Shown: positions 43,046 to 55,320 of the stretch, piece after piece
How positions within the stretch are numbered: position 1 is the first letter of the stretch
Layout: every line of letters begins with the position of its first letter
NCBI GenBank assembly: GCA_001825665.1
Contig: MHXZ01000068.1
Coordinates: forward strand, 1-58,429
From: Planctomycetes bacterium GWF2_41_51
GTDB lineage: Bacteria > Planctomycetota > Phycisphaerae > Sedimentisphaerales > UBA12454
DNA: 58,429 nucleotides
Direction: 5' to 3'
Notes under the pieces: generated by a model
The model's database searches: none
Told to the model about the DNA's origin: nothing
Seen by the model: only the letters and a program-made list of their open reading frames with translations
Program-made: the position numbers and the translations under genes

Positions 43046-43645
43046 TTAATATAATAACGCAAGGCAAATACGCCCTGCTAACCACGCAACATCTTCAGTA
43101 TTAAATACCTTTTTGATACATGAATCAAACATAATATTTGCGGCAGGCTGGAACTCATCATCGCCGAGATGATAGACCAGAGTCGCATCGATTTTTCCGA
43201 CAGCGTGAATAGTCACGGCAAGATCGCCGCCAGTCGCAGGTTTCCAATCAAATTTATTCAAACGCTTTCGGAGCAATTCAATATCATTTCCAATTTGTGA
43301 AATAAGCGGATTTATGCTTCGTGATAAAAACGGATTCCAATAAAATTGTCCACCCGGCAAATCTCGAAACGTAATAAGCTGCCCTGTCGGCTCAAGAGGT
43401 CCATCGTAAAGCAAATAATGCAGGATAATAATATGATCGCCAAGTTTGGCAGGTTTGCCGGATTTTGCTTCTATGATGTCGAAATTTTCATCGATGCTCA
43501 TATCGATCCCGAATGCGCGAAAATTCAATTTGCCATTCTGCGGGTTCGGCAGGCCGAGATTCGCATATCTTGAATCCAGGTTTATGCCGGCAAGTTTTTC
43601 TTTTGCCAGCTTAATCGTTTTTAAATATGCCTCTTGCTTCGACAT
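43046..43645 (-). CDS. DUF3786 domain protein
   Basis: A 199-residue soluble protein recognisable as DUF3786: AFGIDMSIDENFDII, ILHYLLYDGPLEPTGQLITF, FRDLPGGQFYWNPFLSRSI, TIHAVGKIDATLVYHLGDDE and ANIMFDSCIKKVFNTEDVAWLAGRIC. This domain is found almost only in anaerobes and next to CODH/ACS or corrinoid-protein genes; its biochemical role is unknown. The ATG follows the acsV stop by 7 bp without a ribosome site, so translation is probably coupled. A role in assembling or protecting the corrinoid iron-sulfur protein is only a guess from context. Confidence 0.8.
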   Translation of the reverse strand: MSKQEAYLKTIKLAKEKLAGINLDSRYANLGLPNPQNGKLNFRAFGIDMSIDENFDIIEAKSGKPAKLGDHIIILHYLLYDGPLEPTGQLITFRDLPGGQFYWNPFLSRSINPLISQIGNDIELLRKRLNKFDWKPATGGDLAVTIHAVGKIDATLVYHLGDDEFQPAANIMFDSCIKKVFNTEDVAWLAGRICLALLY

Positions 43646-43652
43646 AAATCAA

Positions 43653-45548
43653 TTAATTTTTTACAGAAGGGAAAAGTTTTGAATCTGTATGCGGCAAAAA
43701 CATCGCAGCCGTATATTGATCCATATAGCTCGGCTCAGTGCTAAGATCGATGTAAGTCATTCGTTTTGCCAATTCAAGCTGACGGTCGCGATAATCATCC
43801 GATACCAGCACCATATATGAGCCCATCAATGAAGAATTTCCAATATATTGAAATTTCTCGTGAGGCAAATCGGGAATAAGTCCTATGACGATGGCTTTTC
43901 TGATATCAAGAAAGCGACCGAAACCACCGCCGATGTAAATTTTTTCAAGGTCTGCAAGTTCACAACCAAGCATTTGAACCATAAGCGAACATGCCGAATA
44001 AATCGCGGCCTTGGCTCGAATAATATTTTCGATGTCAACTTCGGAAATAGTAAGCGCTTTTTCGCTGTAAGTCTCATCTGCTTGGGCGATAATATACTTC
44101 GCGTGGCGGCCATCAATAATTATAGCATCAGATTTTCGCTGACGATTAAGTTTTCCGGCACCATCGAGCCATCCGGTTAAAAACAATTCCGCCAGAAGCG
44201 ATATCATACCTGAACCGCATATTCCGCGTGGTTTTGTATTTCCGATAGTGGAATAGTTCGGCACACCTGTTTGAGGATTAACTTCAATTCGTTCGATAGC
44301 ACCAATTGCGGCACGCATACCAAATTCAATCCCGCCTCCCTCAAACGCTGGGCCGGCCGAACAAGCACAAGTCATCAGGACTTCATTATCGCCGATAACA
44401 ATTTCGCCGTTGGTTCCGATATCAATAAACAATCTAAAGCCATTCGCACCAATGGCAATATCCGTACAGAGCAAACCGGCAGTTATATCACCCCCTACAT
44501 AGCTTCCGACACTTGGAGAAATATAAACCCATGATTCGGGACTAATATCAATGCCGATATCAGAAGCACTTAAATACGGAACTTCGAGCAATGTCGGTGT
44601 GTAAGGTTCGAGACGGATATATTCAGGATTAAGACCTAAAAGCAGATGCGTCATTGTCGTATTAGCAGATATTACAGCATTGCAAATTCGCTGGGGAGTG
44701 ACGTTATGGCTTTCAGCAACCTGCCTGATAAGATTATTAATTGTGCTTAGTACGCGCGTTCGCAGTTCTTCGCGTCTATCTTCGCGGCGAGCATAATTAA
44801 TTCTGCTAATAACATCCTGGCCGCACCAAATCTGACTATTATAATCACTTCTGACGGCAACTATTTTTGCAAGCGGCAGAAAAACGAGCTGTACAGCAAT
44901 AGTCGTTGTGCCAACATCAATCGCGATACCATAATGCTCAACGGTAGAATTGCCGGGCTCGATGCCTATGATATGATAGCGGTCGGATTCTCTGACCATC
45001 GTGACAGTTACCTGCCCATTCTGCACGCGAAGGCAGCCGGCTAATAATCGCATGACAGATAAAGGACAAACAAATTCTTTCTTGCCCCATTCCAACTGAA
45101 GACGGCGAACAAGCCTGTCGAAATCAGAAAGACCTTCTCCTGCCTGCGGCGGCGGCACATCAACAAACCATTTTATAGCCAAGGGGTCATATTGCCAATT
45201 TTTGGGAAGAAGCTCATGGCGAATAAGATTGACATCATCAGTCTCGTCACCAAATTTACCGCCCTTTCTTCCTGCCTGTTCAGGCACATCAACGACAATC
45301 GGGGTATCGAGGACACGAGTCTTGCAAGCAAGCACATTTCCAGCCGATACCACTGCCTGTGAAAGCGCGCCAAGGCTGTCTGTATCAACGTCACCTGAGC
45401 GAATGAGAACAACACATTTTCCACAGGTGCCTTTTCCTCCGCACGGTGAATCTATATCAACGCCCGCAATACGAGCGGCATCAAGCAGTTCTGTGCCTGG
45501 CGGCACATCAACCGTTTTCCCAGTTGGTAAAAATGTTACTATAGGCAT
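43653..45548 (-). CDS. acsV: Reductive activator of corrinoid iron-sulfur protein (RACo), ferredoxin-ASKHA protein
   Basis: This 631-residue protein reactivates Co(II) corrinoid in CoFeSP to Co(I) using ATP. The N-terminal [2Fe-2S] ferredoxin domain has ligands C36, C42, C45 and C75 (SPCGGKGTCGKC ... LACKTR). A linker and middle domain follow to ~210, then the ASKHA/DUF4445 ATPase part with YGIAIDVGTTTIAVQLV, NAVISANTTMTHLLLGL, LFIDIGTNGEIVIG and ACSAGPAFEGGGI, and a C-terminal IYIGGGFGRFLDI. AGGT precedes the ATG. It lies directly behind acsC, the gene for its substrate. Confidence 0.93.
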   Translation of the reverse strand: MPIVTFLPTGKTVDVPPGTELLDAARIAGVDIDSPCGGKGTCGKCVVLIRSGDVDTDSLGALSQAVVSAGNVLACKTRVLDTPIVVDVPEQAGRKGGKFGDETDDVNLIRHELLPKNWQYDPLAIKWFVDVPPPQAGEGLSDFDRLVRRLQLEWGKKEFVCPLSVMRLLAGCLRVQNGQVTVTMVRESDRYHIIGIEPGNSTVEHYGIAIDVGTTTIAVQLVFLPLAKIVAVRSDYNSQIWCGQDVISRINYARREDRREELRTRVLSTINNLIRQVAESHNVTPQRICNAVISANTTMTHLLLGLNPEYIRLEPYTPTLLEVPYLSASDIGIDISPESWVYISPSVGSYVGGDITAGLLCTDIAIGANGFRLFIDIGTNGEIVIGDNEVLMTCACSAGPAFEGGGIEFGMRAAIGAIERIEVNPQTGVPNYSTIGNTKPRGICGSGMISLLAELFLTGWLDGAGKLNRQRKSDAIIIDGRHAKYIIAQADETYSEKALTISEVDIENIIRAKAAIYSACSLMVQMLGCELADLEKIYIGGGFGRFLDIRKAIVIGLIPDLPHEKFQYIGNSSLMGSYMVLVSDDYRDRQLELAKRMTYIDLSTEPSYMDQYTAAMFLPHTDSKLFPSVKN

Positions 45549-46909: not shown

Positions 46910-49900
46910 TTATTTATTTATCTGACCATCCATAAGTTTAAAAATAGTTTGCTTCAACGCCATCATCGCATCCGGATTATACATCACAAAAATATCCGCA
47001 CCGGCATAAAGAAGGTTCGTCGCTGTAACCAACTCCCACATAGCAGCACGTTTGTCTAATTGACCCCATGCAGGGAAGTCAGCCTGCGAAGCTTTTGCTT
47101 CTTTTGTTTTTGCACATTCCTGGCCTGTAAGCACGATGATCGGGCTTGCGAGCATTTTATCGCCGCCAAGAGCCGTCATACGCATACGTTCCATAACCGA
47201 ATATGTGTACTCTATGCCGTAGCCAGTTGCGCCAGTGATAGGATCCATCATAATCTGCTCAGGTTTGACATCCATATTCGTAAGCAGAATGTTCATCTGC
47301 TTTGCGATGTTTACGTCAATTGGACTTTGCGAAACAATAGAATGTCCATAAGCTATCGCGGCACCGGCAATCGTGCGGTAATTATCCTGTTCAACCCAGT
47401 TGAGCAGCAGATTCTCGCCCGCACAGGCCTGTGCGACAGCCTTTAATACTTCGTTGTTTTTATCGAAATGGTTATGACCCATTATAATCAAAGGCACATC
47501 AATCGCGGCAAGTATGGACTTGACCAAATCAACAGCTTGTTGTGAACTTCTGTTTCCTTTTTCCGGATGAGTTCCTTCGAGCCTGACACTGATAAGGTCA
47601 GCGCCATATTTATCAACGCATACTTTTGCCATTTCGACAGGATTATTTAGGAGCTTGCCGTAAATATCCCGCAGACTGAGCGGATATTTATCATTAACTT
47701 CGTCAAAAACCTCGAGTGCAACAAGCGGCCGATTTTTCATTTGCCCTTCCCAGAGATGGAAAGGCATACAGGTAGCCCCGCCGACTTTGTAGGTTCTGCC
47801 GCGTGTGCCGCCTTCGGCTTTGGCAGCTCCGAGTTTGACTTCAATAACAGGTACTTCACATTTTTCCTTGCGAACCTTGACGGTTTTGATTTCGCTTATT
47901 CTTTGTGCAGCGCTTGGGCCGTTTGATTTAACCTCAATTTTAGCTTGCGCCTTTACAGGTTCAGATTTGGCAGCAATGGCCGGTGCCTGCTCACCAAGAA
48001 ATTTTACTGAAAGCGTGCTGATAATATCTTTTACGATTTCCTGCGTAAGCAAAGTACGAATATTCTTTGTAACTTCATCAGTTATCTGCGTCTTTATCTG
48101 CGCAATCATTTCAGCAGTAAGCATTGTTTCTGATTTTGTTGTTTCATTGGCAGCAACGGCAACTGCTTTTGCCTCGTCTACAGCCTGTTCAACCGCTTTT
48201 TCAGAATCCACCATTCTATCTTCGACGTTCGTTTCGGCATAATCAGCCATATCTTTCATAGTCAGTGAAGGATGACCAACTTTTTCAAGATATGCCTTAA
48301 TACTTGCAGCATCAGTGCCGACAGACTCATCTGCTATCTTATCAAATAAGTCGGGCACATCCTGTTCTGCAAATCGTTTCTTAAGGTCCTGCTCCAACAA
48401 AGTCTTGAGTTCTTTAGGCATCCAGACAAGCCGTTTGAATCCGCCTTCAGCGTGAAGAAATTTCCTCGAAGTCAGGAACACTTTACCCACACCCATAAAG
48501 CCGGGCGTCTGCTGGCCGCCACCGACACTTCCTGCCAGCGACGAGAATGTCATTCCTATCGGCGTTTCACCCTCATATTCACGGTTGACGACCATTACGC
48601 CGTTGCACTCCGGGACATAAGCACAAATCGCCTCGAAGCATCCGCAGCTTGTCATCGGTCTATCCATTATTGAATATGCTGTGAAACACTTTGTCGCTTT
48701 GTGGCTGGTAGTATAAACAAAATCGTTGATGCCTTGCCATATACCTCTTACAGGATCAAGGCAATCGCCCTTCTTAACAGGCTGGTTTGGCCCTGTTTCG
48801 TCGATTTCAAAAGCAGCCTTGCCGTCGAGCCAGTTATACGCTCCGCACAATCCCAATCGTTCGGGAGTAATAATGCAAACATGATCGGGCGCAAAAGACT
48901 GACACAATGTGCATGAATAAAATGTTTCGACCGATTCATCTGTCATAGATTCAAGCCTTCGATTACGCTCATCGTAAACCTTGCGTGCGACAACGACACG
49001 TTTTTCAACTTCAGCAGAATCGGTAATAATCGTTACTTTAACCTTATCGACAATTGCAGGGTACTCCGACAGCAGCTTGGCATGAAGAATCTCGCCGTAA
49101 TGCCGTAGCCGCAGACCTTTTTTGAAACCATCTTTGGAGATACGCGTCCAGATTATATCACGCTGTCCCATATGCCAAATACCTTCGGCACCGTTGACAA
49201 GGTGATGAATCTGACGTTCGAGAATAGGTTCGAAATCGGACTGCATCTTGCGTCCTGCGACTTCAACCCAAATCGCAAGAGGCATTGCTGTGCCTTCTTT
49301 CACTGTATCGACATCAGGACCGATTATTTCGATATCGCCATCGTTGATTTGATCCATTTCGACAGTTGTAACAAATTCGAATGCTGTCGTCTTATTACCA
49401 CCGAATTCAACATGCGCATCCTGCTTACGGATACGTTCGCCCTCGAATGCCGGGCCGTATGGCACAGGAATCGGCACTTTGGTAATCTTAATTTTGCATC
49501 CGCGTACTTCCAGCGCCTTTTCAACCATTGTTTCATAAGGCACATTCGCGACAACATGTTCATATGTGCAAACACCTGTCGGCAGAATTTCAGGAATATT
49601 TGTATCTGCGATGACAGGGAAGCCGTAGTTGATAGCACCTGCAGCAGCAGCGTATTTATCCGCTGTAACTTCGCCGAACGCGAGCACAAATGCAAAAATA
49701 CGGTCTTTGTTATATTTCAGATTCGCGGCAAAATCGCCGGGCTTTACACCGCCAAACGACATCGCTGCGCGATTTGCAAATCCGAGTGCGTAAATCAATG
49801 AGGAAACATCTCTGCCAAATGGCACCAGACGTGTTTCCCAGCCGAGCTGAACGCCTTCTTCAGCAAGCTGCTCTGCGAATTGTTTGCCGTTTGTGCAGCC

Positions 49901-50422
49901 GCCCATAAATACATACAGATTTTTTTGCTGGAGTTCTTTGGCAATCTTTACCGCAATCTCATTTGTCGGAGCAGCTCCTGTAATCGCCGCAAATCCCGGC
50001 GCAGAGCCGTCTACGAATTCTATGCCTCGTTCGCGCATTATTACATCATTGGCAGCGCCAAGCCAGATACCACCAACAGGATTTGGCCCGACCAGATACT
50101 TGCAAGCTTCAATGATTTCGCAAGCAAACAACGCCGCAACACCGGCATCGAGCGTATTGCCGAGATAAGGCAGCCATACATTATCGGAAGGCCTTGCGGG
50201 CAGGAGTTCTTTTGCTTTGCTGAGCATTTTACGCATATCCGCAAGAGTCTGCATCTTCTCGCCGGTGAACGAATATATTACAGGCAGAAAATACGCTGTA
50301 TTCGGGAACGCCACTGCACAGTTTTCACCTTTTGCAGCGATAGCTTCACTAAGTTTTGCGTCAGCTTTGGCAACCCATCCAACTGCACCATCTATCGCAT
50401 TTGTTGCAATATATTTAGACAT
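46910..50422 (-). CDS. acsB-acsD: Fusion of acetyl-CoA synthase (AcsB) and CoFeSP small subunit (AcsD)
   Basis: One uninterrupted 1170-codon frame. Residues ~1-735 are CO-methylating acetyl-CoA synthase; the A-cluster cysteines C504, C507, C516, C526 and the CGC motif C593-G-C595 match Moorella C506, C509, C518, C528, C595 and C597 with a constant offset of two. Residues ~736-845 form a helical, then Ala/Lys/Pro-rich linker (TAEMIAQIKTQITDEVTKNI). Residues ~846-1170 are the CoFeSP small (delta) subunit TIM barrel: GGATCMPFHLWEGQM, VRLEGTHPEKGN, MGHNHFDKN, TGATGYGIEYTYSVMERMR. The ATG overlaps the acsA stop by 8 bp and has AGGAGGGAG upstream. The normal system has two separate genes, so methyl donor and acceptor are tethered here. 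Confidence 0.95.
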   Translation of the reverse strand: MSKYIATNAIDGAVGWVAKADAKLSEAIAAKGENCAVAFPNTAYFLPVIYSFTGEKMQTLADMRKMLSKAKELLPARPSDNVWLPYLGNTLDAGVAALFACEIIEACKYLVGPNPVGGIWLGAANDVIMRERGIEFVDGSAPGFAAITGAAPTNEIAVKIAKELQQKNLYVFMGGCTNGKQFAEQLAEEGVQLGWETRLVPFGRDVSSLIYALGFANRAAMSFGGVKPGDFAANLKYNKDRIFAFVLAFGEVTADKYAAAAGAINYGFPVIADTNIPEILPTGVCTYEHVVANVPYETMVEKALEVRGCKIKITKVPIPVPYGPAFEGERIRKQDAHVEFGGNKTTAFEFVTTVEMDQINDGDIEIIGPDVDTVKEGTAMPLAIWVEVAGRKMQSDFEPILERQIHHLVNGAEGIWHMGQRDIIWTRISKDGFKKGLRLRHYGEILHAKLLSEYPAIVDKVKVTIITDSAEVEKRVVVARKVYDERNRRLESMTDESVETFYSCTLCQSFAPDHVCIITPERLGLCGAYNWLDGKAAFEIDETGPNQPVKKGDCLDPVRGIWQGINDFVYTTSHKATKCFTAYSIMDRPMTSCGCFEAICAYVPECNGVMVVNREYEGETPIGMTFSSLAGSVGGGQQTPGFMGVGKVFLTSRKFLHAEGGFKRLVWMPKELKTLLEQDLKKRFAEQDVPDLFDKIADESVGTDAASIKAYLEKVGHPSLTMKDMADYAETNVEDRMVDSEKAVEQAVDEAKAVAVAANETTKSETMLTAEMIAQIKTQITDEVTKNIRTLLTQEIVKDIISTLSVKFLGEQAPAIAAKSEPVKAQAKIEVKSNGPSAAQRISEIKTVKVRKEKCEVPVIEVKLGAAKAEGGTRGRTYKVGGATCMPFHLWEGQMKNRPLVALEVFDEVNDKYPLSLRDIYGKLLNNPVEMAKVCVDKYGADLISVRLEGTHPEKGNRSSQQAVDLVKSILAAIDVPLIIMGHNHFDKNNEVLKAVAQACAGENLLLNWVEQDNYRTIAGAAIAYGHSIVSQSPIDVNIAKQMNILLTNMDVKPEQIMMDPITGATGYGIEYTYSVMERMRMTALGGDKMLASPIIVLTGQECAKTKEAKASQADFPAWGQLDKRAAMWELVTATNLLYAGADIFVMYNPDAMMALKQTIFKLMDGQINK

Positions 50423-52364
50423 TCAACTCCCTCCTATCTTTCATATCCAGCAATTTACGTTCGGCCTTTTTATTTATGCCAAGCTTTTCGCGAGCGTCAT
50501 TCAGGATATCCATAATTTTAGTAACCGCTTCGTGCGGGTCTTCGGCAACGTGAAATGAGCCGCCGAAAATATTCTTTGTTTCTTCGTTTAGGAATTTTGT
50601 TACGTTCTCAGAGCCATTGATATGGAAAGGATGTCCCAATACCACGTCAACGCCGGAAGCCACAAAATAGCAGCCGATAGCGACCGCTTTTTCACTCATC
50701 CATTCAGGAGCAACGCCCACTGCAGGAACCTGTGCTAAATCATCTCCGAGCCCGCCTTCTCTGACTACTTCCGTAGCTGCTTCGAGAATACGTGTATTAT
50801 CCACGCAGCTTCCCATGTGCAGCACCGGTGCGATGCCCACTGCTTCACAAACTTCCCTCAAACCGGGGCCCGCATGCTCCAGCGCCGCTTCAGGAGTCAT
50901 CGCTCCCTCTTTACCGGAAGCTATCGCAGCACAACCTGTTTTTAGAATCAGAACATCTCGTTTGATTAATTCCTTTGTCAGCACATTCATGTAATGATCC
51001 ATTTTCTGTTTCGGATTATTGCATCCGACAATACCAACTACACCTTTGATTCTGCCCTGCATAATAGCATCATTCAAAGGTCTAAACGAAGCTCTGAATT
51101 TTCCGCCGAGCATATACTTAATCGCTTCCACGCTGTAACCGGCAATCATTGGACTGTTTGCTTTTGGTATGCTCATCTTTTTGATATCGCGATTTTTATA
51201 ATTATCGATAGCCTGCCTTATTATATTCTTTGCCGAAGTCAGCGCATCATTTCCATCAAACCCAAGATGCTCTGCCCCGACCATTTTAGCGATATGGCTT
51301 GTCGTTACGATTTGGGTGTGATATGACTTAGCTACATCGGGCAGCGAAGGCATAACGCACTGAACATCTGTTATCATCATTTCAACTGCGCCTGTTATAA
51401 TAGCAAGTTCCTGCTGAAGGAAATTTCCCGCGACCGGAATACCATGCCGCATCAGTATTTCATTTGCCGTGCAGCATATACCGGCAAGAGTAACACCATC
51501 AGCGCCTACATTTTTCGCATATTCCTTTATCTCCGGCATTTTAACGGCCACCGCCAGCATTTCCGAAAGTTCCGGTTCATGACCGTGTACAACAATATTC
51601 ACTGTTTTTTCGCCAAGTACACCAAGGTTCACTTTCGCCTTAATCGGGGTCGGTGTTCCAAAAAGAATATCTGAACATATTGTAGCCACACGCGATCCGC
51701 CCCATCCGTCTGCAAGCGAAGTTCTAAAGGCATGCATCAAAATATGTTTGTAATCATGATCAACTCCCATGTGCGTCCTGTGCATTGCCTCAACGCACAT
51801 ACGGTCAATGCTTTGGGGTTTTAAATTAAGCTGTTCCCACATCCCCTGCCGCTTTATCGGCGCAAGACTCAGTGTTTTAAGCGGGTCTTCCTGCGATGTA
51901 AATTCTCCGATGAATAAATTAGCAAGGTCAATAGCTACCGCTTCTTTGGTTCTGCCTGCTTCCTCTATATTATAATCATTAGCCGCACGTCGAAGCGCCG
52001 CTTCATCCTTTATCTGGTATCCGCCGCCATTTCCTTCGGCTACTTTTTTTAACCTTAAAACAAGATGACGGCCGTGATCCGAATGCGCTGCTGTCCCGCC
52101 GACAACCTCGCGAAGGAAGTTGCGAGCCACAATGGTATCTGCATCAGCGCCGCATACGCCTTTCGGTGATTTTGGTGTTATACGGCAAGGCCCCATGTGG
52201 CATATTCGACAGCAAACCCCCAAGGTGCCGAATTTACACTGATTGGACTGTGTATCCATACGCGCAAAACAGGTATCAACGCAATCTCGCTCTGCTTTAA
52301 GCAGAGTTTCAACCGACGCTGCGTCCCATGCCCTGTCTTTGGCACTTAACGATTCTTTTGCCAT
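50415..52364 (-). CDS. acsA: Ni-containing carbon monoxide dehydrogenase catalytic subunit
   Basis: A 649-residue CooS/AcsA protein that interconverts CO2 and CO; in this operon CO is passed to acetyl-CoA synthase. The N-terminal cysteines of the D and B clusters are in CVDTCFARMD, CKFGTLGVCCRICHMGPCRI and KGVCGADAD. C-cluster ligands are seen in GGTAAHSDHGRH (His), GICCTANEIL, GIVGCNNPK, LKTGCAAIASGK and MGSCVDNTR. Length fits the bifunctional, ACS-associated group. GGAGG lies ten bases before the ATG. It is preceded by two CooC ATPase genes that probably insert nickel into it. Confidence 0.95.
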   Translation of the reverse strand: MAKESLSAKDRAWDAASVETLLKAERDCVDTCFARMDTQSNQCKFGTLGVCCRICHMGPCRITPKSPKGVCGADADTIVARNFLREVVGGTAAHSDHGRHLVLRLKKVAEGNGGGYQIKDEAALRRAANDYNIEEAGRTKEAVAIDLANLFIGEFTSQEDPLKTLSLAPIKRQGMWEQLNLKPQSIDRMCVEAMHRTHMGVDHDYKHILMHAFRTSLADGWGGSRVATICSDILFGTPTPIKAKVNLGVLGEKTVNIVVHGHEPELSEMLAVAVKMPEIKEYAKNVGADGVTLAGICCTANEILMRHGIPVAGNFLQQELAIITGAVEMMITDVQCVMPSLPDVAKSYHTQIVTTSHIAKMVGAEHLGFDGNDALTSAKNIIRQAIDNYKNRDIKKMSIPKANSPMIAGYSVEAIKYMLGGKFRASFRPLNDAIMQGRIKGVVGIVGCNNPKQKMDHYMNVLTKELIKRDVLILKTGCAAIASGKEGAMTPEAALEHAGPGLREVCEAVGIAPVLHMGSCVDNTRILEAATEVVREGGLGDDLAQVPAVGVAPEWMSEKAVAIGCYFVASGVDVVLGHPFHINGSENVTKFLNEETKNIFGGSFHVAEDPHEAVTKIMDILNDAREKLGINKKAERKLLDMKDRRELNV

Positions 52365-52430: not shown

Positions 52431-53222
52431 TTATTTACTTTTTTCATCACGGATATTACTACCCTTAAGGGTATCCATAATAAAATTGTCAAGCTTCATA
52501 ACGACCGGATTAGATGCAGGGAGTTCAAACATAGTTCGACCATCCTGCGCAAATTGTGCTATTTCTGCATCATCTTCGAGACCGAAAATAAAATCCGCTC
52601 CTGTTTTGGTTTTTAAATCTGCAACTAATGGCGGCAATTCATTTTGCCTGAGCCTGTTAACAACTATCGCCAGCTTTGAGTAACCAATATCCATTTGCTT
52701 CGCCAGAGTCCAAAGCCGCTCAACAGTTTCAAGGCCACGCACAGATGGGTCTGCAACTATCACAAGCACATCGACTCGCGTAACGATTCGCCGCGAGAGG
52801 TTCTCAAGACCTGCCTCGTTATCAAGCACGATATACGGATACTGCGACGAAATCTCGCCAAGTGCCTGTTTGAGAACATTATTGGCATAGCAATAACAGC
52901 CCGGCCCTTCAGGTCTGCCCATCGCAATAAGGTCGAAATTGTGCGCTTCGACAAGGCTCTCGGATATTTTAAGTTCCAAAAGCTGCTGCTTGGACATTCC
53001 ACTTGAAAGCCCTTTTGTGGCGACTTCTTTTGCTTCTTCACGAACACTGCCGATTGTGTTTATTGCTTTTACACCCAGTACAGCATCAAGGCATGTATTA
53101 GGGTCGGCATCAACAGCCAATACAGGCGTACAGCCTCGACTAATCAGCCGGGATATTAAAAGTCCTGCGACTGTTGTCTTGCCTACTCCGCCTTTACCAC
53201 TTATTGCGATTTTAAAACTCAT
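52431..53222 (-). CDS. cooC: CooC-type nickel-insertion ATPase
   Basis: A 263-residue MinD/ParA-family ATPase with the deviant Walker A GKGGVGKTTVAGLL, ADPNTCLDAVLG (switch I), the CooC metal motif CYC in GPGCYCYANNVL near residue 110, and VLDNEAGLENLSRR (Walker B). CooC dimers bind Ni2+ through this CxC and load it into CODH. It lies 66 bp upstream of acsA and 7 bp after the small coiled-coil gene. It is one of two CooC-like proteins here; they differ enough in sequence to be ancient paralogues, perhaps one for CODH and one (AcsF-like) for acetyl-CoA synthase. Confidence 0.9.
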   Translation of the reverse strand: MSFKIAISGKGGVGKTTVAGLLISRLISRGCTPVLAVDADPNTCLDAVLGVKAINTIGSVREEAKEVATKGLSSGMSKQQLLELKISESLVEAHNFDLIAMGRPEGPGCYCYANNVLKQALGEISSQYPYIVLDNEAGLENLSRRIVTRVDVLVIVADPSVRGLETVERLWTLAKQMDIGYSKLAIVVNRLRQNELPPLVADLKTKTGADFIFGLEDDAEIAQFAQDGRTMFELPASNPVVMKLDNFIMDTLKGSNIRDEKSK

Positions 53223-53229
53223 AGTTCAC

Positions 53230-53427
53230 TCATGTAGTCGGGTGAGGCCTGCCGCAGCCATCACTTATGCGAGCAAGTTCACTTCTTTTTTCGGCAAGCT
53301 TTGTTTTAGCCGTTTCAAGTTGAGCTTCCTCAACCGGCTTTTCAATTTCAAGCTCGCTTATACAATCTTCAAGTTTCTCAATTTCTGCCATCAAATGAGA
53401 GTATTTTTCACGATTTAAATCTTTCAT
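53230..53427 (-). CDS. 65-residue coiled-coil protein between the two CooC genes
   Basis: The product is predicted to be one long helix pair with heptad spacing (MKDLNREKYSHLMAEIEKLE ... EAQLETAKTKLAEKRSELAR), ending with a short tail DGCGRPHPTT that has one Cys and one His. The ATG overlaps the stop of the upstream CooC gene as ATGA, and the downstream CooC gene starts 7 bp after its stop, so the three are translationally coupled. No known family is recognised. The tight coupling to two nickel ATPases suggests a partner or metallochaperone scaffold, which is inference. Confidence 0.6.
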   Translation of the reverse strand: MKDLNREKYSHLMAEIEKLEDCISELEIEKPVEEAQLETAKTKLAEKRSELARISDGCGRPHPTT

Positions 53428-54203
53428 CTTTTACCGCTTTCAACAATATTCATAATAGCTTCAAATCTTTTAAGAATATCGCTATCTAATTCGTCAAGCA
53501 CCGATTTGCCATTTCTATCTGCAAGACGAAGCTGGTCGGAATATGGAATAACGCCAATGACACTGTTGCCGCCAAGTGCGTTTCGGATAAATTCTTCATC
53601 GTCAGGGCTTTTGATTTTATTCAGAACAAACGCATAACGTTTCAGCCCTATTTCGCCCGCCATCTGGACAACCTTTTTAGCGCAATCAATCGATCGCTGC
53701 CCCGGCTCAACTACTATCAGCATCAAATCGACTCCACTCGCTGTCGCTCTGCCAAGATGCTCAACTCCGGCTTCCATATCCATTATCAACGCATCATTTT
53801 TATAAAGCACAACATCACTGACAAGCGCGCGGATAAAAATATTTTCCGGGCAAGCACATCCGCTCCCGCCCTGCTTTACAGCGCCAAGAACCAAGAGCGC
53901 GATTCCATTATGAATCGTTGCACACTTCTCTGCGATATCTGAAACTTCAGGATTGATTTTAAACATCTGGCCGTATTGTTTAACCTTTGCTCCGGTACGT
54001 TCTTCAATCAGCGAAATCTGCTCAGAAATCGGAACAATCGTTTTCTGTTTATCAACAGATAAACCCAGCGAGCCGGCCAAACTGGCATTGGGATCGGAAT
54101 CGATAGCCAGCACCTTTCGACCGCTGCGAGCCAGTAAAATTGCCAGTGCCGCCGCAAGTGTGGATTTCCCTACACCGCCTTTTCCGGAAATTGCCAGTTT
54201 CAA
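53424..54203 (-). CDS. CooC/AcsF-type ATPase, second copy
   Basis: A 259-residue MinD-like ATPase starting at a TTG with GGGGGT upstream. Walker A is SGKGGVGKSTLAAALAILLA, switch I DSDPNASLAGSLG, the CxC metal motif GSGCACPENIF near residue 112 and Walker B IMDMEAGVEHLGR. By family it is a nickel-binding maturation ATPase for CODH or acetyl-CoA synthase (AcsF in acetogens). It follows the MetE-like gene and overlaps the coiled-coil gene by four bases. Which of the two ATPases serves which enzyme cannot be told from sequence. Confidence 0.9.
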   Translation of the reverse strand: MKLAISGKGGVGKSTLAAALAILLARSGRKVLAIDSDPNASLAGSLGLSVDKQKTIVPISEQISLIEERTGAKVKQYGQMFKINPEVSDIAEKCATIHNGIALLVLGAVKQGGSGCACPENIFIRALVSDVVLYKNDALIMDMEAGVEHLGRATASGVDLMLIVVEPGQRSIDCAKKVVQMAGEIGLKRYAFVLNKIKSPDDEEFIRNALGGNSVIGVIPYSDQLRLADRNGKSVLDELDSDILKRFEAIMNIVESGKR

Positions 54204-54221: not shown

Positions 54222-55289
54222 CTAAAAACCATACTTGGCTTTCATAGCTTTTGAAACACCTGCCAGAGTCTCGAATACTTTTTCTGCATCTGCCGGGTCC
54301 ATCGAACCTGTACCGCATGATGGCGTTATCAACGCCTGTTCTGCGATAACTTTCTTATCGATGCCTTTTGATGCCAAGTGATCCATAACTTTTTCAAGCT
54401 GATTGCAGAGACTATCAACAGACTGCTCACGAATTTTAACTGATGTCGGTATAACACCCCATGCGAGCATTCCGCCGCGGGAGAGATGTGCCTTTACAGA
54501 ATCAGCATACATAGCGATAGTTTCGCCAAATTCAAAAGCATCAAAGTTTACAATATCGATGCCTGCGTCAATCAAAATGCTCCATTCGGTATTGCCGCAG
54601 CAGTGAATTCCTGCGATGCCGCCGTCCATATGAACCGCATTGATTACTTCATTGAGAATAGCGACAACATCTTCACGTTTCACTGAAACATATGTCGATG
54701 AGCCGAATGCTGAAAGAATCGGCTCGTCAATAAAGCAAATAACGCCCTTTGTTGTATATGGTTTGAATTTTTGTATCTGCCAGCGTGCTTTCATTGCCAA
54801 TGCCTTGACAATCATATCACGAAATTCATCGTTGTAAAAGATTGCCCGCTTGTTCTCATCAACCAGCGTCAAAGCGAAACTGCAAGGTCCTGTTACCTGA
54901 ACCTTTGCAAATGGCAATTTGATATTTTTGCTTTTAAGCCGGTTTTCCATCGCATAAAGGCCTTTTGAAAATTCAGGACTTATCGCCATAGATGAACAAT
55001 CGCCATCGCCTTCCATTGCTGTCATATAGCTTTCATAAAAAACTGCGAATGCTTCTGAATAATCCTTCGATGTATCGAAATACATTCTGTGTTTTGCTTC
55101 ATCAATAACAGCATTGGGCATACCTTCTGAATATTGAATTTCCATCTGCTCATGCAGTCCGAATTTTGGAAGCTGCGGCCAAATCGGCGCTTCGTGCATT
55201 CTTGTCAGACTTACATCAATTGCATGCTCAACATCTGTAAACGGCATCGAGCCAATTCCGGTAGCTAAAAACTTCGGCTTAATTGACAT
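54222..55289 (-). CDS. MetE-like core methionine synthase, probably MesB family
   Basis: The ATG at 55289 is chosen for the AAGGAG ten bases upstream; 55298 would be too close. The 355-residue protein is a single UroD/MetE-type TIM barrel without the MetE N-terminal folate half: ATGIGSMPFTDVEHA at the start, QVTGPCSFAL, ICFIDEPILSAFGSS, and zinc ligands in GIHCCGNTEW and TPSCGTGSM. Core methionine synthases of the MesB family occur in Wood-Ljungdahl anaerobes and are thought to take methyl groups from corrinoid proteins. Placement in the CODH/ACS operon fits this well. Assignment to MesB rather than a related methylcobamide:CoM-type transferase is inferred. Confidence 0.65.
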   Translation of the reverse strand: MSIKPKFLATGIGSMPFTDVEHAIDVSLTRMHEAPIWPQLPKFGLHEQMEIQYSEGMPNAVIDEAKHRMYFDTSKDYSEAFAVFYESYMTAMEGDGDCSSMAISPEFSKGLYAMENRLKSKNIKLPFAKVQVTGPCSFALTLVDENKRAIFYNDEFRDMIVKALAMKARWQIQKFKPYTTKGVICFIDEPILSAFGSSTYVSVKREDVVAILNEVINAVHMDGGIAGIHCCGNTEWSILIDAGIDIVNFDAFEFGETIAMYADSVKAHLSRGGMLAWGVIPTSVKIREQSVDSLCNQLEKVMDHLASKGIDKKVIAEQALITPSCGTGSMDPADAEKVFETLAGVSKAMKAKYGF

Positions 55290-55320
55290 TATTATCATAC
55301 TCCTTAATATCTATAGATGT

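Follow-up and report, generated by a model that had tools for sequence, protein, structure and literature searches.

Acetyl-CoA synthase and the corrinoid protein small subunit form a single chain in a bacterial operon lineage spread across many phyla

Acetyl-CoA synthase (AcsB) and the corrinoid protein small subunit (AcsD) are one polypeptide in Planctomycetes bacterium GWF2_41_51, and the fusion is no planctomycete oddity but a clade that extends across at least 14 named phyla. The fusion probably tethers the AcsC-AcsD corrinoid protein (CoFeSP) to acetyl-CoA synthase (ACS) as a swinging methyl donor, with the Wood-Ljungdahl direction the most likely one in this host. The gene was studied within a window of 58,429 nucleotides, the whole stretch of DNA that was analysed.

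Results

The fusion gene lies at 46910..50422 (-) and is a single frame of 1170 codons (1170 aa) with an ATG start, as an earlier note on this DNA had read it. The Pfam domains of AcsB and AcsD are in order along the chain. The AcsB part, residues 1-725 (48248..50422 (-)), scores 1057.8 bits against the NCBIfam model NF040764 over residues 10-725, well above the cut-off of 800. It contains PF18537, PF03598 and PF19436, of which PF18537 is the bacterial N-terminal CODH-binding domain A1 that archaeal ACS lacks. The AcsD part, residues 848-1166 (46925..47881 (-)), is a TIM barrel that passes the cut-off of NF003376 (379.9 bits over residues 848-1164; cut-off 280) and scores under the cut-off of the narrower NF040759. 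In the AF2 model, residues 1-726 align to the solved ACS chains 1ru3, 7zkj and 6ytt (Z 44-48), and residues 846-1169 match AcsD 4djd_D at 1.6 A over 322 residues (Z 47.1). The model as a whole has a low pTM of 0.49, with uncertain domain placement and each catalytic fold intact. C504, C507, C516 and C526 (48845..48913 (-)), the [4Fe-4S] ligands of the A-cluster by homology, and C593-G594-C595 (48638..48646 (-)), its distal nickel site by homology, are invariant in all 47 aligned fusions. We take the six cysteines to be Moorella residues 506, 509, 518, 528, 595 and 597, with an offset of two. Judged by its sequence, the AcsB part is a full bacterial acetyl-CoA synthase with all six A-cluster cysteines and the CGC motif. 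The earlier description of a complete AcsB followed by a complete AcsD barrel was thus accurate. A search of the host genome found the fusion as its sole AcsB and its sole AcsD.

The interdomain linker, residues 726-847 (47882..48247 (-)), is about 120 residues long and consists of two Ala/Pro/Glu-rich arms, predicted to be disordered, that flank one conserved helix (residues 768-812; 47987..48121 (-)). AF2 pLDDT falls below 50 at residues 732-770 and 800-834, and the helix is predicted at about 770-808. No match to the linker region was found among the structures aligned to the AF2 model. A helical or flexible linker of about 110 residues had been proposed; its length is somewhat greater. Across the fusions, the equivalent of residues 726-859 spans 115-222 residues (median 137) and is rich in Ala, Glu and Pro. 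Its sole conserved element is the core of the helix, EIVxxIIxTLxxKFLG, in which L804 is kept in 94% of fusions. Because a profile of this helix matches 91 fused frames in a search over the loci and no intact unfused gene among the sampled loci, unfused AcsD included, the helix is probably an innovation specific to the fusion clade with no recognisable AcsD extension behind it. The idea that part of the linker derives from an N-terminal extension of AcsD therefore finds little footing. It retains a weak opening in NF003375, the NCBIfam model of long AcsDs, which aligns weakly from residue 779 and under its cut-off. The helix motif is missing from the three earliest-branching fusions (L123, L129 and L130), so any specific role of the helix is not universal in fusions. 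In the fusion of another planctomycete genome, G329, the linker (L014) contains ATGILPVDSHGLEAHAT, which resembles an interspersed repeat peptide of planctomycete genomes. The repeat may have been tolerated within the disordered arm.

All genes of the operon lie on the (-) strand. The CODH gene (AcsA, bacterial type; 50415..52364; TIGR01702, 632 bits) is upstream of the fusion and overlaps it by 8 nt. AcsC, the corrinoid protein large subunit with [4Fe-4S] cysteines C17, C20, C25 and C42 (45556..46899; NF003195, 515.8 bits), comes 10 nt after the fusion and directly follows it in nearly all fused loci. It is followed by an AcsV/RACo-type corrinoid reductive activator, assigned by homology (43653..45548), and a DUF3786 protein (43046..43645), which is recurrent in fused operons. 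On the other side of CODH are a CooC/AcsF-type P-loop ATPase, with a role in nickel maturation by homology (52431..53222), a second CooC-type P-loop ATPase, also recognised by homology (53424..54203), a MetE-like zinc methyltransferase (HxC...C) that belongs to no Pfam family (54222..55298), and HcyMT, a homocysteine S-methyltransferase domain protein (PF02574; 55321..56256). With small variations, the order of fused operons is HcyMT - MetE-like - CooC - CooC - CODH - AcsB/AcsD - AcsC - AcsV - DUF3786. Among the 54 fused loci with enough upstream sequence, CODH is present in 54, the MetE-like gene in 47 and HcyMT in 24, and AcsE is in the operon of none (0/54). Seventeen loci were counted as unfused, and three of these (L122, L127 and L146) are frame-disrupted fusions and were left out. 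AcsE is found in 13 of the remaining 14 unfused loci, and the MetE-like gene in 0/14. The earlier note had missed this linked change, namely the departure of AcsE from the operon and the presence of two thiol-methyltransferases. A canonical bacterial acs cluster has separate acsD and acsE within it, and the fused operons have neither. Two other arrangements were seen among the loci: an AcsB frame of 857 aa broken by an insert (about 139 residues) that falls between query positions 408 and 435 (L227:3996-6566 (-)), and a single acs cluster with two AcsB copies in Bacillota genomes (L226 and L228).

The MetE-like protein keeps H232, C234 and C328 in 35 of 35 sequences, and this is the zinc-thiolate arrangement known from MetE-type enzymes. 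In fold, its model (pLDDT 93) most closely resembles MetE 1xpg (E 2.7e-8) and the M. mazei methyltransferase 4ay8. The family scores 37 bits against the methionine synthase model PRK00957, whose cut-off is 258. It had no meaningful Pfam match, and none to a methionine synthase family; a profile search of the PDB with the family gave no match. This family without a Pfam model is tied to the fused operon, occurring at 45 further loci besides the window. HcyMT is nearest to the MetH homocysteine domain 1q7m (E 7e-53), and the intact Cys3 zinc site (C229, C295 and C296) is invariant. Both proteins should act on a thiol, so neither offers itself as a substitute for AcsE.

AcsE appears to have moved out of the fused operon and not simply to have been lost. 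Outright loss was ruled out by AcsE-like proteins found with MTHFR or FTHFS in several fused genomes. On host contig C78, an 816-aa chain (L197:4127-6577 (-)) combines MTHFR with a MetV (PF12225) and an AcsE (NF005719) domain. By its domains, this MetF-MetV-AcsE protein joins methylene-THF reductase to methyl-THF:CoFeSP methyltransferase. Acetate kinase (ackA; L197:8225-9415) lies near it, and FTHFS is on contig C6. The genome G452 (GWF2_50_10), whose AcsB is 90% identical to that of the host, has the same protein adjoining FTHFS. The order is AcsE-MetF-MetV in G460, and other fused genomes have adjacent genes; the matches for AcsE in G440 and a few more genomes were limited to FolP, MetH-type proteins or fragments. 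A 980-aa frame with this reverse order (L202:2778-5717 (+)) is present in a genome that carries the AcsB-AcsD fusion. Another fusion in the pathway, an 801-aa frame joining AcsC and AcsE (L243:1461-3863 (-)), was seen in a Thermodesulfobacteriota-group genome.

The co-occurrence of AcsB and AcsD in single planctomycete proteins, which the earlier note had suggested as a check, was searched in 392 genomes of the phylum Planctomycetota. About 57 of these have ACS, and it is fused in two, the host genome and G329, where the same CODH-fusion-AcsC order is spread over two contigs; the fusion is a minority form in this phylum. A wide scan of 84,980 species genomes used two fusions as queries, and because the best 80 loci were retained its counts are a lower bound. 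Both domains are in a single frame at 73 of these 80 best loci. More than 60 of the fused frames among them are complete ORFs of 1154-1297 aa, and most of the others stop at a contig edge. The fusion is present in at least 70 species besides the host, nearly all of them represented by metagenome-assembled genomes. The named phyla are Spirochaetota, Lentisphaerota, Bacillota, Planctomycetota, Verrucomicrobiota, Fibrobacterota, Acidobacteriota, Myxococcota, Thermodesulfobacteriota, Synergistota, Ignavibacteriota, Bdellovibrionota, Latescibacterota and Bacteroidota. Several unnamed candidate groups also have it; records without an assigned phylum are from Aminicenantes, KSB1 and SAR324, and the Hydrogenedentota copies are frame-disrupted. 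In an even per-phylum sample, the fused share is about 12 of 27 ACS-bearing genomes in Spirochaetota and about 11 of 19 in the phylum of Lentisphaerae and Verrucomicrobia. In the Thermodesulfobacteriota and Bacillota samples only the seed genome is fused, and nearly all genomes have separate genes. Each of 22 fused genomes checked has one fusion, and a second AcsB or AcsD was found in none of the 22.

With divergent Bacillota and Treponema primitia sequences as the root, the AcsB tree gathers the fused proteins into one clade (support 99), which lies among unfused sequences. The support is 100 in another AcsB tree with 77 rows in the fused clade. The outgroup-rooted AcsD tree also places the fused proteins in one clade (support 99). 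The AcsB and AcsD trees are quick trees whose support values are SH-aLRT only. Since each domain tree has one fused clade and host phyla are scattered within it, the simplest reading is that a single fusion event was followed by wide horizontal transfer of the cluster. Long open frames had hinted at a second independent fusion in T. primitia (G672) and at further ones in Bacillota (G1110, G1015, G1149 and G1163). The genes proved to be separate in all of these, including acsE in T. primitia. Splits of acsB and acsD in L120, L122, L127 and L106 appear to be frameshifts in draft contigs.

Discussion

The data show the fusion, its conservation and single origin, the intact catalytic motifs and the co-operonic AcsC and CODH, and the disordered arms are predicted. 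According to the earlier note, a fusion would hold the corrinoid protein on ACS in a 1:1 ratio; the fusion is confirmed and we infer the tethering. In this mechanism, the tethered AcsD would bind AcsC, the product of the following gene, and each CODH-ACS half would carry its own CoFeSP on a flexible arm. The arm would swing methyl-cobalamin to the A-cluster, and no free CoFeSP would be left to capture. In an AlphaFold3 model of ACS-CoFeSP, the CoFeSP beta subunit (AcsD) lies against the ACS N-terminal domain and the AcsC cobalamin domain reaches the A-cluster (PMC12289521); AcsD is accordingly the half that would bear the tether. The tethered AcsD would hold CoFeSP beside ACS through its closed, wobbly and extended states. 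A restriction of the large motions of ACS, also suggested earlier, is unlikely because the arms are long, variable in length and sequence and predicted to be disordered; they would be long enough not to hinder these states. The linker helix is a probable docking or pairing site, and the tether would bring a kinetic or assembly benefit. The host enzyme most likely works in the Wood-Ljungdahl direction, because the genome has FTHFS, acetate kinase and the MetF-MetV-AcsE protein to supply methyl groups.

The probability that an assembly or binning artefact explains the fusion is negligible. The host genome is a draft of 138 contigs and its genus mates lack ACS, but the more than 60 complete ORFs are independent, one of them on the chromosome-scale record CP070691, and the fused proteins form one clade in both domain trees. 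Intact fusions in independent genomes refute an assembly artefact, which the earlier note had named as what would overturn its reading. PurD on the same contig, the sole full-length copy in the genome, is 84-87% identical to that of 5 of 6 genus mates; it thus groups with the genus, which rules out a mis-binned contig. The operon has a GC content of 0.45 against 0.40 for the rest of the window, a mild shift that is compatible with acquisition. It is also conceivable that AcsB and AcsD may be separated by proteolysis after translation.

It is rather doubtful that the fusion serves chiefly to set stoichiometry and assembly, by which one ACS and one AcsD would enter a stable supercomplex like archaeal ACDS and the swinging corrinoid would add little. 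Methanogens do keep ACS and CoFeSP in a stable 2.2 MDa complex (PMC11474084), and a single frame with co-operonic AcsC gives 1:1 expression. However, separate adjacent genes would be a cheaper route to the same end, and the long disordered arms with a conserved helix suggest a mechanical role. We regard as unlikely a methionine-forming or acetyl-CoA-cleaving operon, in which the MetE-like protein, HcyMT or both would transfer the methyl group of methyl-CoFeSP to homocysteine, in the way proposed for the Dehalococcoides core-MetE, and the fusion would serve that branch. The operon counts of these two genes and of AcsE point in this direction, as do the invariant zinc ligands and the MetE fold, and Dehalococcoides uses a core-MetE without acsE (PMC7005905). 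However, MTHFR, FTHFS and an AcsE-like protein are present elsewhere in many fused genomes, so these genomes do have a source of methyl groups for synthesis. The operon always includes CODH, and this explanation leaves the AcsB-AcsD fusion itself unexplained. The swinging methyl donor, as the preferred reading, can be placed in a broader picture that we hold only tentatively. The operon would be a distinct, horizontally mobile Wood-Ljungdahl core in which CoFeSP, permanently tethered to ACS, is a methyl hub. The hub would take methyl groups from an AcsE relocated to, and sometimes fused with, methylene-THF reductase. It would pass them on to the A-cluster and also, with the MetE-like protein and HcyMT as intermediaries, to a thiol (homocysteine or a different one).

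In swinging-arm enzymes such as pyruvate dehydrogenase E2 and MetH, an Ala/Pro-rich flexible linker brings a cofactor-bearing unit to active sites. The present fusion differs in that it tethers the scaffold half, AcsD, with the cofactor held between AcsD and AcsC. The CODH/ACS systems of Moorella thermoacetica, Carboxydothermus hydrogenoformans and Clostridium autoethanogenum resemble the fusion operon in their subunits, A1-A2-A3 ACS, A-cluster ligands, AcsC, CODH, AcsV and CooC. However, these three make AcsB and AcsD as two proteins and keep acsE within the cluster, whereas here there are one chain, two thiol-methyltransferases and no acsE. In methanogen ACDS, ACS is likewise held stably with CoFeSP, but the association is non-covalent; at its C-terminus, methanogen ACS is extended by a flexible stretch of about 75 residues (PMC11474084). 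ACDS also differs in that its ACS lacks A1 and its CODH has an extra epsilon subunit, whereas the fusion has PF18537 and a CODH of the bacterial TIGR01702 type. In Dehalococcoides, where acsE is missing, a zinc methyltransferase of the MetE fold, core-MetE, has been proposed to work with AcsCD (PMC7005905). It shares HxC and C zinc ligands in a MetE barrel with the MetE-like neighbour of the fusion, but the sequence match is weak (37 bits to PRK00957). Dehalococcoides lacks CODH and MTHFR, whereas genomes of the fusion clade have CODH and, in most cases, MTHFR.

The enzymatic parts are all of known kinds, but the covalent joining of AcsB to AcsD, the phyletic spread of this architecture and the rebuilt operon appear to be undescribed in the open-access papers searched. 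No description of the fusion was found there, and priority is uncertain since the main phylogenomic survey of the complex lies outside that scope. The way in which ACS and methyl-CoFeSP come together is an old question, and one cryo-EM study was blocked by crowding of free CoFeSP (PMC12289521). A natural ACS-AcsD tether offers a single-chain handle on this question. In a pathway that is supposedly primordial, the fusion also singles out one lineage of the gene cluster that has passed between at least 14 phyla, which matters for the interpretation of CODH/ACS trees. Annotation pipelines may call acsD or acsE missing in fused operons though the functions are present. An Rfam search of the window gave no match. 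Positions 6662-41854 form a region of glycan degradation, where LamG, PEP-CTERM and N-methylation-motif proteins occur together with GH130, GH9 and DUF2961.
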